From Sphingobacterium multivorum (GTDB lineage: Bacteria > Bacteroidota > Bacteroidia > Sphingobacteriales > Sphingobacteriaceae): a stretch of DNA of 64,000 bases. Shown in pieces: positions 20,662 through 26,231 of the stretch. Under the pieces are notes generated by a model. That model was given only the letters and a program-made list of their open reading frames with translations. It did no database searches and was not told the origin of the DNA. The stretch lies in NCBI RefSeq assembly GCF_039511225.1, contig NZ_CP154261.1, positions 2,666,001 to 2,730,000 of the forward strand. The letters run 5' to 3'. Positions within the stretch are counted from its first letter, which is position 1, and every line of letters starts with the position of its first letter. The position numbers and the translations under genes are program-made.

Positions 20662-21090
20662 GTGGAGAAAATTAAAAGTAGAACTATGTGGCAATATTAT
20701 TTAATTCTAGGGTTTGGGCTCGTTTTCCTTGTGTTGGCAATCTACAGCTTCCGTAATACAATGGTATTTCTAAAAAATGGTAATAAAGTTACTGCAACTG
20801 TTATTGACTTTCATAGATACGAATCTGATGGCGAGGTTTTTGCCCCAATCTTCACTTTTCGGACAAAAGATAATCAATTAGTAACATATGAACTAGCCGA
20901 AAGCTCCGATCCTCCAGCTTGGAAAATAGGAGAGACAACAACTGTCATCTATGATCCTGCGGATCCGTCGAAAGTAAGTTTATATAGCTATTTCAGAATG
21001 TTTATATGGACATTGGTACTTCTTTCAATAGCTCTACCCTTAATAGTAATTGGTGGAGGTTATTTTATTGCAGCGAGATTCATTCTCTAA
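20662..21090 (+). CDS. DUF3592 domain membrane protein
   Basis: A 142-residue protein starting with GTG at 20662 (an in-frame ATG lies at 20686). It has a TM segment near residues 12-30, an extracytoplasmic domain with G-x-x-V-x-A-T-V-I-D-F, Y-x-P-I-F-T-F and a Y-D-P-A-D-P-S-K motif, and a second TM near 115-138. That is the DUF3592 pattern. Function unknown. Confidence 0.8.
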   Translation: MEKIKSRTMWQYYLILGFGLVFLVLAIYSFRNTMVFLKNGNKVTATVIDFHRYESDGEVFAPIFTFRTKDNQLVTYELAESSDPPAWKIGETTTVIYDPADPSKVSLYSYFRMFIWTLVLLSIALPLIVIGGGYFIAARFIL

Positions 21091-21387: not shown

Positions 21388-21557
21388 AATTATATTTGTT
21401 AAAATTGATTATTCAGCGTATAAATTTAGGAAATTAAATTGTGCATTAATCAATTGAACTTCCTTTGAGAATTGATTTTATGCTTGTATAACAGCAAAAT
21501 TTTATTTGGAATATTGATTCAAAATTTCCGTAAATTTAGTAGTATAAAAACTACGCC

Positions 21558-23108
21558 ATGAAAAACCCTATTTTGCACGCATTACGATGCTGCGCGCTCC
21601 TTAGTTTTCTTTTTAGTTTTACTTCTTATGCTCAAAATTCTAGGCCTTCTGCGCCGAAACAGAATGCGGGAAGTGGAAAAAGCAGCCCAAAACAGATCGA
21701 TATCTACGTAGCAGGATCCTGTTACAATGAAAATACACAAAAGCACACTGCTGTATACTGGAAAAACGGACAACCTGTAGCACTTACTGATGGGCAAAAT
21801 GACGCAGAAGCGACATCAATAGCTGTTTCAGGAAATAATATCTACGTAGCAGGAAATATAAGCGGACAGGCTGTATATTGGAAAAACGGGCAGGTGACGA
21901 GGTTTAATAAAGATGAAGGGGATTACAATACCGCTAATTCAATTGCTATTATAGATGGTGATGCCTATGTGGCCGGATATTATAGGGACTATAATGATGT
22001 CAGAACCAAATATGATGATTTAGCAATGTACTGGAAAAACGGGCAGCCTGTGAAATTGCCACTTCCCATCCACGATTATAGCTGTGCGAATTCGATAGCT
22101 GCAATAGCTGATGATATATACATTATCGGGAACAACCAGTCCGGACAGCTATACTGGAAAAACGGTCAATTAGTAGAGACTATCAATGACCTAAAGTATG
22201 TAACTGCCATTTCACAACTGAATGGTAATGCTTATGCTGTAGGTATAGCCAATAACGGGCAACCTGCATATTGGAAAAACGGGCGTACCGAAAGCCTATC
22301 CTCCATAGATGGTTTAGCTACTTGCATAGCTGTATCCGGCAGCGGCGATTTATATGTGGCTGGTGTCGATGATACTAATGGAAATGGATACCCTGAAGAT
22401 AATGATGTGGGAAAAGTTTGGAAGAACGGGCAGTTACTTATGAACCTTAAAGGTCCAGATTTTTATATCTATCGTCCTACTTCCATGGCCGTAACGGGTA
22501 ATGATGTATATATTATAGGGCGTGCCAGCATTGGCTCTTCTGGTTCGGGAACGAGATTATTGAAGAATGGCCAAATAATAGAATTAAGTAGGATAGAAGG
22601 AAGTTCTGGGTCTGTGGCAAATTTCGTAATATCTAGCGAGGCAGGTGATAATAGTCTATCAAAGCAAAATAAAGTTGCCACAAAAAATGAGAATACAGAT
22701 GCTTTCCCAAAGTTTGTAAAGGAAGAATTAAGTCCTAAAGAAAAAGAGGCTAACGATTTTTTTGAAGAAAATAAAAAGAAACCTGGCGTTATTACGCTAC
22801 CGAGTGGTTTACAGTATGAAGTTATTCGTCAGGGTACAGGATCTAAACCCAACTTATCGGATCAAGTGAAAATAACGCATACGAGAACGGTTATGGAAGG
22901 AAAAGAGATTATGGGAGTGATCAAAGGTGAATCAGCAGGTATTGTTCGCGTTGCTGATCTTATACAAGGTCAGGCACAAGGTCTCTTACAAATGAATGTA
23001 GGAAGCATTTATAAATTCTATATTCCTGCCAAACTTGGCCACCCTAAACAAACAAATAAGGCAGTAATACTTATCATAGAAAATGAACTTTTGGAAATTG
23101 TGAAATAA
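21558..23108 (+). CDS. Secreted 7-repeat 'YWKNGQ' propeller fused to FKBP-like domain, copy 1
   Basis: A 516-residue protein with a signal peptide ending S-Y-A-Q. Residues about 50-365 contain seven repeats of roughly 35-50 residues, each with Y-W-K-N-G-Q and a following I-x-V-S-G-N-x-x-Y-V-A-G strand, which suggests a seven-bladed beta-propeller. From about residue 394 an FKBP-N-type helix (F-F-E-E-N-K-K-K-P-G-V) leads into an FKBP-like fold (S-G-L-Q-Y-E-V). The domain lacks the usual active-site residues: no F-D-S-S, and Gln where V-I-x-G-W has its Trp. Catalysis is doubtful. First of three tandem paralogs. A small inverted repeat GTAGT/ACTAC sits just before the start. Confidence 0.85.
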   Translation: MKNPILHALRCCALLSFLFSFTSYAQNSRPSAPKQNAGSGKSSPKQIDIYVAGSCYNENTQKHTAVYWKNGQPVALTDGQNDAEATSIAVSGNNIYVAGNISGQAVYWKNGQVTRFNKDEGDYNTANSIAIIDGDAYVAGYYRDYNDVRTKYDDLAMYWKNGQPVKLPLPIHDYSCANSIAAIADDIYIIGNNQSGQLYWKNGQLVETINDLKYVTAISQLNGNAYAVGIANNGQPAYWKNGRTESLSSIDGLATCIAVSGSGDLYVAGVDDTNGNGYPEDNDVGKVWKNGQLLMNLKGPDFYIYRPTSMAVTGNDVYIIGRASIGSSGSGTRLLKNGQIIELSRIEGSSGSVANFVISSEAGDNSLSKQNKVATKNENTDAFPKFVKEELSPKEKEANDFFEENKKKPGVITLPSGLQYEVIRQGTGSKPNLSDQVKITHTRTVMEGKEIMGVIKGESAGIVRVADLIQGQAQGLLQMNVGSIYKFYIPAKLGHPKQTNKAVILIIENELLEIVK

Positions 23109-23175
23109 TGCTTTAATTAATCAGTATCTACAAGAGAATAGCTTAGATTAAGTTTAATAGTATAAAAACTACGCC

Positions 23176-24729
23176 GTGAAAAACCCTATTTTGCTAGCAT
23201 TACGATGCTGTGCGCTCCTTAGTTTTCTATTCAGTTTTGTTTCTTACGCCCAAAACGATAAAACTAACGCTCCAAAATCTAGTTCATCGATCAGTCAAAC
23301 GGATGTTTACATAGCTGGAAGCTGGTATGACAGAAAAACAGGGCAGACCTTTGCTGCTTACTATAAAAATGGCAAACCTGTAGTTCTTAAACAAGGGCAG
23401 GGACCAACCCAATTTTCAACTGTTTCATTAGGTAGATCTATAGTCATAAATAACAATGATATTTATGTTGCCGGGAATATACTGGACGCTGACGGCCATA
23501 GTTTAGCTGCTTATTGGAAAAATGAACAGTTTCAGCCAATACCGATTAAGATTGATCAATATGGGAATAAACAAACATCGTATTTAAACGGAATTGATAT
23601 TTCTAACGGAAATATTTTTATGTTTCCCTATCAACCCGGTACTTTAAATGAATACTATTATTTTAAAAATGGTGAGGAAACAAACTTTCCAAATGAAGTC
23701 CCATCTAGTGTGATAAATGATCGTGTGCATTTCGTGTCGGGAAATGATGTTTATGTGGCAAATGCTACAGACGAGGCGGCTTATTGGAAAAACGGTGCTA
23801 AAGTTACATTGGATAATACATTGCATCATCCCAACAGTGTGCAGGTTTCGTCTATATTTGTCTCAGGAAATGATGTTTATGTGTCAGGTTATAAATCTTA
23901 TGCGTCCAAAGGAGCAGATAATACAAATAAGCAGATGGCCCTCTATTGGAAAAACGGACAGGAAATTATACTCTCTACGGGTACCGGCCGCTATGCAACG
24001 AGATTAACCAGTTCTATCTTCGTGTCGGGAAATGATGTTTATGTTGCCGGAATGAGCAGGGATCCTAACACAGGTGAATCCATGGCCGTCTATTGGAAGA
24101 ACGGGCAGGAAGTTGTTTTAGCTAAGGGTCCAACTTTTACACAGGCATTGGCCATAGCAGTCTCAGGAAGTGATGTATATGTTGCTGGGGAGAATTCTAA
24201 TAGAAAAGTGTACTGGAAAAATGGGCAGGAAACCAATCTTACTGATTGTGCTGAAATAAGCTCTATGGTGGTATCGAAAGGGAGTGGGAATGTACCTAAT
24301 TCAACATTAAACAATGTTTCTGTAAATAATACTTCGGATTTAATTTTGAAAGAGAAAGCTGATCAGTACCTTGCACAGATGAGAAAAGTTCCCGGTATCA
24401 TCGAAACTCCAAGTGGTTTATTATATCAAGTGTTTAGAGAAGGGGCCGGACCGAAAGTAACTTTTGATCAAAGAATTGCAGTGAACTATAGAATAAGTTT
24501 TCCTGACGGTATTGAAAGAGGGCACTATCGAGGTGGAAATGGTGGGAATATGTCTGCCAGTACTTTTATAACCAAAGGAATGCAGGAAGCCGTTCAATTA
24601 ATGCGAGCCAGAGGAGTTTATAGGTTTATTATCCCGTATAATCTTGTGTATGGAAAAGAAGGAGCAAAAGATATTCCACCATATCAAGTATTTATTTATG
24701 ATGTTGAAACATTTGAAATTGAAAAATGA
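23176..24729 (+). CDS. Secreted 7-repeat 'YWKNGQ' propeller fused to FKBP-like domain, copy 2
   Basis: A 517-residue paralog of the preceding gene, starting with GTG at the position aligned to copy 1's ATG and preceded by the same AGTATAAAAACTACGCC leader. The signal peptide is nearly identical. Seven Y-[WYF]-[WFK]-[KN]-N-G-type repeats again precede an FKBP-like domain from about residue 392. Here the domain keeps N-Y-R and I-P-x-x-L-x-Y-G, closer to the canonical fold than copy 1, but still lacks the Trp of V-I-x-G-W (K-G-M-Q). Ligand or client unknown. A surface or periplasmic binding role is inference. Confidence 0.85.
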   Translation: MKNPILLALRCCALLSFLFSFVSYAQNDKTNAPKSSSSISQTDVYIAGSWYDRKTGQTFAAYYKNGKPVVLKQGQGPTQFSTVSLGRSIVINNNDIYVAGNILDADGHSLAAYWKNEQFQPIPIKIDQYGNKQTSYLNGIDISNGNIFMFPYQPGTLNEYYYFKNGEETNFPNEVPSSVINDRVHFVSGNDVYVANATDEAAYWKNGAKVTLDNTLHHPNSVQVSSIFVSGNDVYVSGYKSYASKGADNTNKQMALYWKNGQEIILSTGTGRYATRLTSSIFVSGNDVYVAGMSRDPNTGESMAVYWKNGQEVVLAKGPTFTQALAIAVSGSDVYVAGENSNRKVYWKNGQETNLTDCAEISSMVVSKGSGNVPNSTLNNVSVNNTSDLILKEKADQYLAQMRKVPGIIETPSGLLYQVFREGAGPKVTFDQRIAVNYRISFPDGIERGHYRGGNGGNMSASTFITKGMQEAVQLMRARGVYRFIIPYNLVYGKEGAKDIPPYQVFIYDVETFEIEK

Positions 24730-24735
24730 TACACC

Positions 24736-26231
24736 ATGAAAAGCCCTATTTTGCTAGCATTACGATGCTGTGCGCTCCTTAGTTTTCTATTTAGTTTTAC
24801 CTCCTATGCTCAAAACTCTAAGCATTCTGCTTCAAAGCAACATTCAACGATCTTTTACTTGGAAGCGAAAGGATAGCTGCCTATTATAAAAATGGCGTTC
24901 TTGTTGAACTAACGGATGGGCGATATGCTGCTGAAGTTCAGGTTGTCGCTTCTGATGGTGAGGACGTCGTTATGGCAGGATTTCATAATAAGAAATCTGT
25001 TTATTGGAAAGATGGTAAGGAATATGCATTAAATAGTCATTCGGAAGTGGTACAAATCAACGCAATAGCTGTAAAAAATGGTAATATTGCTCTTGCCGGA
25101 ATATTTTTAAAGTATAAGCCATTACCAGCCGCTTCAAGATATGTGGCCATTTATTGGAAAAATGGTCAACCTACGGAACTTACTGATGGCTCTAATGACG
25201 GCGGTGCAACAGGTGTTGCAATAGATGATAATGGCGATGTGTATGTTTCTGGTTATTATGATTGGAAGACGAAATATTGGAAAAATGGACAGTTGGTAGC
25301 TCCATTTGACGCTTCAGCAGGAGAGATTAGCCCCACACGTATGCTCGCTGTCGGACAAAAACTCTATATCTCCGGGGTAGGCCCTAAAACGAGAGTTGGT
25401 TATTGGGAAAGTGGAAAAGGACTCACCTCTTTTCCCTATACTGATGATCATGATAAGGCAACAGATATTGCAGTCTCAGGTGATGATGTGTATGTCATGG
25501 GGTATAATTCGAAATATCAGCCGTTTTACCTTAAAAATGGAGTAGAAACGATCGTTAGTGAAAAGGGGTATTCTAATTCATCTATTCCTGAGCCCTATCA
25601 TATCGCGGTTCATGGAAATGATGTTTATGTTGTAGGGTATGATGGATTTACAAATAATGGGCAATGCTGGAAAAATGGAGAACGTATTCTACCTAATGAT
25701 AATACCTTTGTTGCAAGATGTATCACGATTAATTCTACGGGAAATAGAAGTAATCCACCAAAACAATCTACAGTAAGTAAAAGAGAAAGTCGTGTAGAAT
25801 CTGAAGTTAATATACAGCCGCAAAAAACACTTACACCAAATACAGCAAAGATACTCACTGCCCCAGAAGAGGCTGATCTATTTTTTGAAGAAAATAGAAA
25901 AAAACCAGGCATTATAACAACTGCAAGTGGTTTACAATACGAAATATTGAAGCAAGGAAATGGCCCCAGAGTTTCGGCATCGGATAAAATCCAAGTTATC
26001 CATAAAAAAATATTAATGTTCGGAAAGGAAGTAAAAGAACAGGGAGGATATAGTCCTCCGAATACCTATGAAGTTCGAAATCTAATGAAGGGTTTGATCG
26101 AAGGGATTACTCTAATGAATGTAGGAAGTAATTATAAATTATTTATTCCAGCCAAACTTATTAGTTCCGAGGCAATAAAAAGCGGTGCGACAATGATTTT
26201 TGAAACCGAAATACTTGGAATCATAAAATAA
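24736..26231 (+). pseudogene. Propeller-FKBP paralog, copy 3, frameshifted near N-terminus
   Basis: The ATG at 24736 begins the same signal peptide as copies 1 and 2 (M-K-S-P-I-L-L-A-L-R-C-C-A-L-L) but reaches TAG at 24874-24876 after 46 codons. The propeller and FKBP-like domain continue in another frame, open from about 24855 with G-S-E-R-I-A-A-Y-Y-K-N-G, through to 26231. The first in-frame ATG there is 24972, giving 419 residues and losing one repeat and the signal. The frame change fits loss of one base (or gain of two) at about 24850-24865. Seven repeat motifs are still recognisable. Either a recent pseudogene or a sequencing error. Confidence 0.75.

Follow-up and report, generated by a model that had tools for sequence, protein, structure and literature searches.

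Propeller-FKBP fusion proteins of Sphingobacterium with a dismantled isomerase pocket and an exchangeable C-terminal module

Three tandem genes and their products

We have analysed a stretch of 64,000 nucleotides (the window) of a Sphingobacterium genome that consists of a single contig of 5.95 Mb. The three tandem paralogs expected from the original prediction are present, all on the forward strand, and are termed here copies A, B and C. Copy A (21558..23108) is an open reading frame encoding a protein of 516 amino acids, with matches to Pfam FKBP_N and FKBP_C above the cut-off. It begins with a signal peptide, MKNPILHALRCCALLSFLFSFTSYA (21558..21632), that lacks a lipobox and is predicted to be cut by signal peptidase I before Gln according to the Bacteroidota Q-rule. 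This is followed by a propeller at residues 47-361 (21696..22640), seven-bladed in the AlphaFold2 model, and by a linker helix and degenerate FKBP domain at residues 391-516 (22728..23105) delimited by structure alignment. Copy B (23176..24729) has a GTG start and encodes a protein of 517 amino acids, identified from its reading frame, an FKBP_C match and an AlphaFold2 model; its propeller, similarly seven-bladed in the model, occupies residues 42-368 (23299..24279), and its linker helix and degenerate FKBP domain residues 386-517 (24331..24726).

Copies A and B are intact. As assembled, copy C is frameshifted, as judged from its stop-to-stop frames. The frame carrying its signal peptide, MKSPILLALRCCALLSFLFSFTSYAQ..., ends in TAG (24736..24876), and the body, with seven repeats and the FKBP domain, lies in a different frame of 469 codons stop to stop (24822..26231); the linker helix and degenerate FKBP domain, placed by FKBP_N and FKBP_C matches, occupy 25839..26228, where the start is approximate. 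The first start codon of the body frame is the ATG at 24972, so that a product initiated there would miss both the signal and blade 1. Either the gene broke recently or the sequence contains an error. At the level of DNA all three copies do share a signal peptide, as predicted; in copy C, however, this signal is out of frame with the body.

A conserved stretch of 33 nt with the character of a promoter or 5′ UTR (21525..21557), recognised from leader identity and a whole-genome leader search, immediately precedes the copy A start codon. A gap of just 6 bp (24729-24736) lies between copies B and C and the conserved upstream block is absent from C, and for these reasons the two are probably co-transcribed. 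Upstream of copy A is a gene encoding a DUF3592 membrane protein (20662..21090, forward strand). It is 89% identical to a counterpart near a further copy, E (L046 9677-10105), which suggests that this gene was duplicated together with a propeller-FKBP gene.

The family is in fact wider than the tandem array that had been described, since two more full-length copies lie elsewhere in the genome, both on the minus strand. Copy D (3458417-3459994) is about 0.77 Mb away and 62% identical to A, and copy E (2976392-2977990) is about 0.29 Mb away and 58% identical to A. The surroundings of copy D (L045, G000:C1:3452000-3468000) resemble a polymorphic toxin locus: here lie an RHS/DUF6443 protein that includes an M23 peptidase domain, a number of small unassigned ORFs and a WapI-type immunity gene. 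An IS21-type istA/istB pair adjoins copy E (L046 2661-4974; G000:C1:2970000-2986000), and is a possible vehicle for dispersal of the copies.

The signal peptides of copies A-E have no lipobox and end in ...AQ, as do those of the fusions examined. In Bacteroidetes, signal peptidase I substrates carry Gln after the cut (PMC5837995), and by this rule the ...AQ ends are of the signal peptidase I type. A lipobox is present in 68 of 78 stand-alone propeller relatives, 27 of which have at least two acidic residues soon after the Cys, in the manner of surface export signals. From their signals we infer that the fusions are exported and located in the envelope.

Exactly seven WKNG-type motifs were counted in each of copies A, B and C, in agreement with the earlier count; in copy A these start at residues 67, 107, 158, 199, 238, 287 and 334. 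None of 1400 composition shuffles contained three or more WKNG motifs, with a pattern that was itself derived from these same proteins. The AlphaFold2 models (pLDDT 85.4 and pTM 0.67 for A; 81.8 and 0.65 for B) each contain 28 propeller strands, which we read from the strand list as seven four-stranded blades, and fold comparison agrees with the seven-bladed propeller that had been anticipated. In the models the last blade is completed by a strand from the N-terminus, residues 47-57 of A and 42-52 of B. The linker of copy A at residues 364-387 has low model confidence, so the relative placement of propeller and FKBP domain is not fixed by the model.

The best structural matches of the propellers were to CylK (VIA Z of about 24, and 24 for copy A), followed by seven-bladed designs (Z of about 22), with values of 21.7 and 22.0 for copies A and B against the design WRAP-T. 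The propeller profile retrieved no significant match among PDB sequences, and searches of Pfam and NCBIfam yielded no family for the propeller. Matches to TruB-C_2, RIP and Kelch were discarded, being weak, confined to one repeat each, and nearly always without a stretch that passed alone.

Loss of the pocket from the FKBP domain

The C-terminal FKBP-like domain of the original prediction is borne out by FKBP_N and FKBP_C matches in all three tandem copies, and by the FKBP fold in the models of A and B. Against the Pfam cut-off of 21.1 bits for FKBP_C, copies A and B score above (37.3 for B) and copy C below, at 18.5. The matches to FKBP_N extend over profile positions 41-97 in A, 70-97 in B and 66-97 in C, i.e., the end of the linker only. 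The full N-terminal dimerisation domain of PF01346 is missing from A, B and C, which have a propeller at this position instead. The FKBP domains are nearest in structure to L. pneumophila Mip, PaFkbA, TcMIP and FkpA, with best Z values of 18-19 and rmsd of about 2 Å. Copy A aligns with L. pneumophila Mip over 123 residues (VIA Z 19.2, rmsd 1.8 Å), and copy B with PaFkbA over 128 residues (VIA Z 18.7, rmsd 1.8 Å).

Is the catalytic pocket retained within this fold? We defined its core by eight positions of FKBP12: Tyr26, Phe36, Asp37, Phe46, Ile56, Trp59, Tyr82 and Phe99. Only one or two of these are kept in copies A-E. Over 11 fusions the number kept is 1-3, with a mean of 1.7, compared with 6-8 and a mean of 7.0 in 30 stand-alone Bacteroidota FKBPs. 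When five fusions read later are added to these 11, Asp37, the Asp of the FDSS motif, is missing from all 16, and the pocket Trp from 15, the exception (L187 of G763) having a GW motif. Tyr26, Phe36, Trp59 and Tyr82 are jointly missing from A, C, D and E; Tyr26 and Tyr82 are retained in B.

The sequences of A, B and C confirm that the Trp and the FDSS motif are missing from all three. The argument that had been made from the Trp does not suffice, however; the loss of this residue alone is no proof, and what counts is the loss of nearly the whole pocket. On that basis the loss of catalysis that had been proposed is well supported, and the accompanying role in binding is inferred. A working but unusual prolyl isomerase would be consistent with an FKBP fold that is well preserved in the models, with the GW motif of the one exceptional fusion, and with the tolerance of Trp loss by SlyD-type enzymes, which have Leu at this position. 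Yet the absence of Asp37 from all 16 fusions, and of Tyr26, Phe36, Trp59 and Tyr82 together from four of the five host copies, makes such an activity very unlikely.

In a tree of FKBP domains, 10 of the 11 fusion domains cluster (support 86/93), with copy B unplaced on a long branch. Two Mucilaginibacter domains, which keep the most pocket residues, form one branch, and the other clustered fusions a second. The simplest reading, though unproven, is a single fusion event followed by stepwise loss of the pocket.

The ratio dN/dS for the FKBP domain of copy C and its counterpart in Sphingobacterium sp. CZ-UAM (G027, a genus neighbour; copy G) is 0.21, and among propellers for which dS is unsaturated it is 0.18-0.4. 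A value of about 0.2 indicates that the degenerate FKBP domain is being kept, and is not decaying. It could be supposed that the genes are a functionless family in decay, with the degeneration of the FKBP domain, the frameshift of copy C and relics of the leader in other species (described below) as its signs. But six of the seven copies carried by the host and CZ-UAM have an open frame of about 500 codons, and the same degenerate domain is kept across several genera; with the dN/dS values, these observations lead us to give the idea hardly any credence.

A canonical FKBP is retained elsewhere in the host genome (L008 1180-1905, G000:C1:2397492). It scores 102.3 bits against the NCBIfam cut-off of 100 for BamJ, and is a candidate BamJ in Sphingobacterium on the strength of this match.

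Spread of the family, constant leader and exchange of modules

It had been proposed that the fusion and its neighbours be sought in other genomes. Of 400 genomes from the order, 9 have a full-length propeller-FKBP fusion, the host being one of them, and no conserved neighbour was found around these genes; in a phylum sample of 395 genomes the fusion was found in the host only. The carriers include Mucilaginibacter oryzae, M. psychrotolerans, Pedobacter sp. Bi126 and a MAG labelled Cytophagales. By eye the fusion of this MAG (L066) is close to that of a genome of the host family (L186 of G814), a likeness to be explained by transfer or by mis-binning of the contig.

Without the FKBP domain, the propeller occurs widely in Bacteroidota, mostly in lipoproteins, with occasional matches in Treponema and Geothrix. 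Stand-alone WKNG propeller lipoproteins (L062-L122) are common in the phylum, at times in tandem, and no Pfam or NCBIfam model covers the examples scanned, so that these seven-bladed lipoproteins are apparently a widespread unnamed family. The fusion architecture had been called unfamiliar, and in the literature searched, with most subscription journals outside it, we found no description of the YWKNG motif, the fusion, a dead FKBP of this kind or the module exchange. Both folds are known; it is their combination that is new.

The 33-nt upstream stretch is common to copies A, B, D, E, F, G, H and I. Mean pairwise identity is 0.86 at positions -33..0, whereas it is 0.35 at -100..-50. Together with the signal peptide the stretch forms a block of about 110 bp with an identity of 0.81-0.90 across copies and species; on its upstream side identity falls to 0.35, and on its downstream side to about 0.65. 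At synonymous sites the leader has diverged by 0.1-0.7 and the propeller by 0.35 up to saturation, the leader value being several times the lower in most pairs. Recent gene conversion within the genome was not supported as the sole cause, as the leaders are about equally alike between species and within the genome. A hairpin in the 5′ leader was not supported either, there being no pair changed on both sides and pairing no better than in shuffled sequences, and a scan for promoters and terminators gave results at chance level. The constancy of the leader may result from recombination or from selection at the level of nucleotides.

Remnants of the leader without a propeller gene occur in other species (L131 of G044, L132 of G128 and L133 of G046). 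In G128 the leader precedes an unrelated protein that has an apparent signal peptide of its own.

Over the 1203 bp of the propeller, the DNA of copy D is 87% identical to that of a relative (L065), after which their C-terminal domains are unrelated; likewise A and F are alike in the propeller and have different C-terminal domains. The reverse is seen for C and E, which are 89% identical over 217 bp of the linker and start of the FKBP domain, with propellers that cannot be aligned as DNA. The FKBP domain of copy C is 80% identical in DNA to that of copy G over 396 bp. Within the genus the replacement domain is found only behind these propellers. By eye the replacement module of F, H and I had seemed FnIII-like, but Pfam and PDB profile searches did not confirm this and it is left unnamed. 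As read from these alignments, the family recombines, and the FKBP domain is swapped wholesale for another domain in close relatives. Neither this exchange nor the constancy of the leader figured in the original prediction; the tandem array is of lesser importance.

A constant leader and propeller with exchangeable C-terminal modules might suggest inter-bacterial conflict, or another fast-diversifying recognition system. The wholesale exchange of C-termini, the leader relics, the turnover of copy number among species and the neighbours of copy D are all in keeping with this. However, none of the C-terminal modules is toxin-like, no immunity gene travels with the fusions and the RHS neighbourhood is found at one locus only; we regard such a role as improbable.

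Possible function, and comparison with known systems

We think it probable that the fusions are exported, soluble and non-catalytic binding proteins with an exchangeable C-terminal module. The proteins would be exported by the Sec pathway and then cleaved by signal peptidase I, and might reside in the periplasm, at the surface or in the medium. The seven-bladed propeller would provide a scaffold for recognition, and the FKBP domain, its isomerase pocket dismantled, a second, non-catalytic module for protein contact or docking. This docking module would be exchangeable, as an unrelated domain stands behind the same propeller in close relatives, and the copies would diversify by duplication and recombination under a near-constant leader. 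Some FKBPs with altered pockets retain weak activity, and the domain could alternatively do no more than act as a structural spacer. The search for a ligand, a partner or a conserved neighbour of the fusions gave none, and the stand-alone propellers likewise had no conserved neighbour.

More tentatively, and with considerable doubt, we can go further than a binding role. The genes might encode a family of exported proteins that recombines under a constant leader, with a seven-bladed propeller as its head and a C-terminal module that can be swapped, and in which the dismantled FKBP domain has become dedicated to non-catalytic recognition or docking, a bacterial pseudo-isomerase evolving as an exchangeable binder. 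The fusions connect a large and apparently unnamed group of Bacteroidota propeller lipoproteins with FKBP-type folding factors, and offer a natural series of FKBP domains with partly to fully dismantled pockets under purifying selection. Two ideas become testable: that binding alone can be the task of an FKBP fold in the bacterial envelope, and that propeller-FKBP partnerships of the BamI-BamJ kind are fused elsewhere.

The chaperone activity of FkpA is independent of isomerisation, and the fusions could be periplasmic folding helpers in which an FKBP chaperone lacking isomerase activity is docked by the propeller to an outer-membrane machine, the roles of BamI and BamJ being united in one soluble chain. 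The nearest FKBP structures are of Mip and FkpA type, and the PPI of the type 9 translocon (6h3i_B) was also matched. There is a precedent in the dome of the Bacteroidota BAM complex, where the propeller lipoprotein BamI touches the FKBP BamJ (PMC12578637). But the BamJ model (NF053689) gives just 41.4, 36.5 and 22.9 bits for A, B and C against its cut-off of 100, and BamI comprises an N-terminal Ig domain and six blades (PMC12578637), in contrast to seven blades and no Ig domain in the fusions. Moreover the sporadic occurrence of the fusions is unlike that of a core folding factor, and their FKBP domain is swapped out in relatives. On balance we consider a folding role unlikely, and continue to favour a non-catalytic binding protein.

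How does such a protein compare with known systems? The propeller fold is common to BtuG, CylK and the designed WRAP-T, but the fused propellers have no detectable sequence relation to these and no function is implied; a common fold says nothing on function. There is by contrast clear sequence homology to the stand-alone WKNG lipoproteins, which have the same repeat, usually seven times. Some of these have an N-terminal Ig- or PKD-like domain, where the fusions have instead a C-terminal module and a signal peptidase I signal. With isomerases of the FkpA, Mip and FklB type the fusions share the end of the FKBP_N linker helix and the C-terminal FKBP fold, where the structure alignment gives an identity of about 30% with L. 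pneumophila Mip and PaFkbA. They differ in having a seven-bladed propeller for the dimerisation domain, and a dismantled catalytic pocket. The closest functional analogy in the phylum is with BamI and BamJ, where likewise a propeller lies beside an FKBP in the envelope; BamI is not among the structural matches listed, which carries no weight against a likeness to it. BamI and BamJ are nevertheless two separate lipoproteins, BamJ with a conserved putative active site (PMC12578637), whereas the fusions are one chain, with neither a lipobox nor a domain before the propeller.
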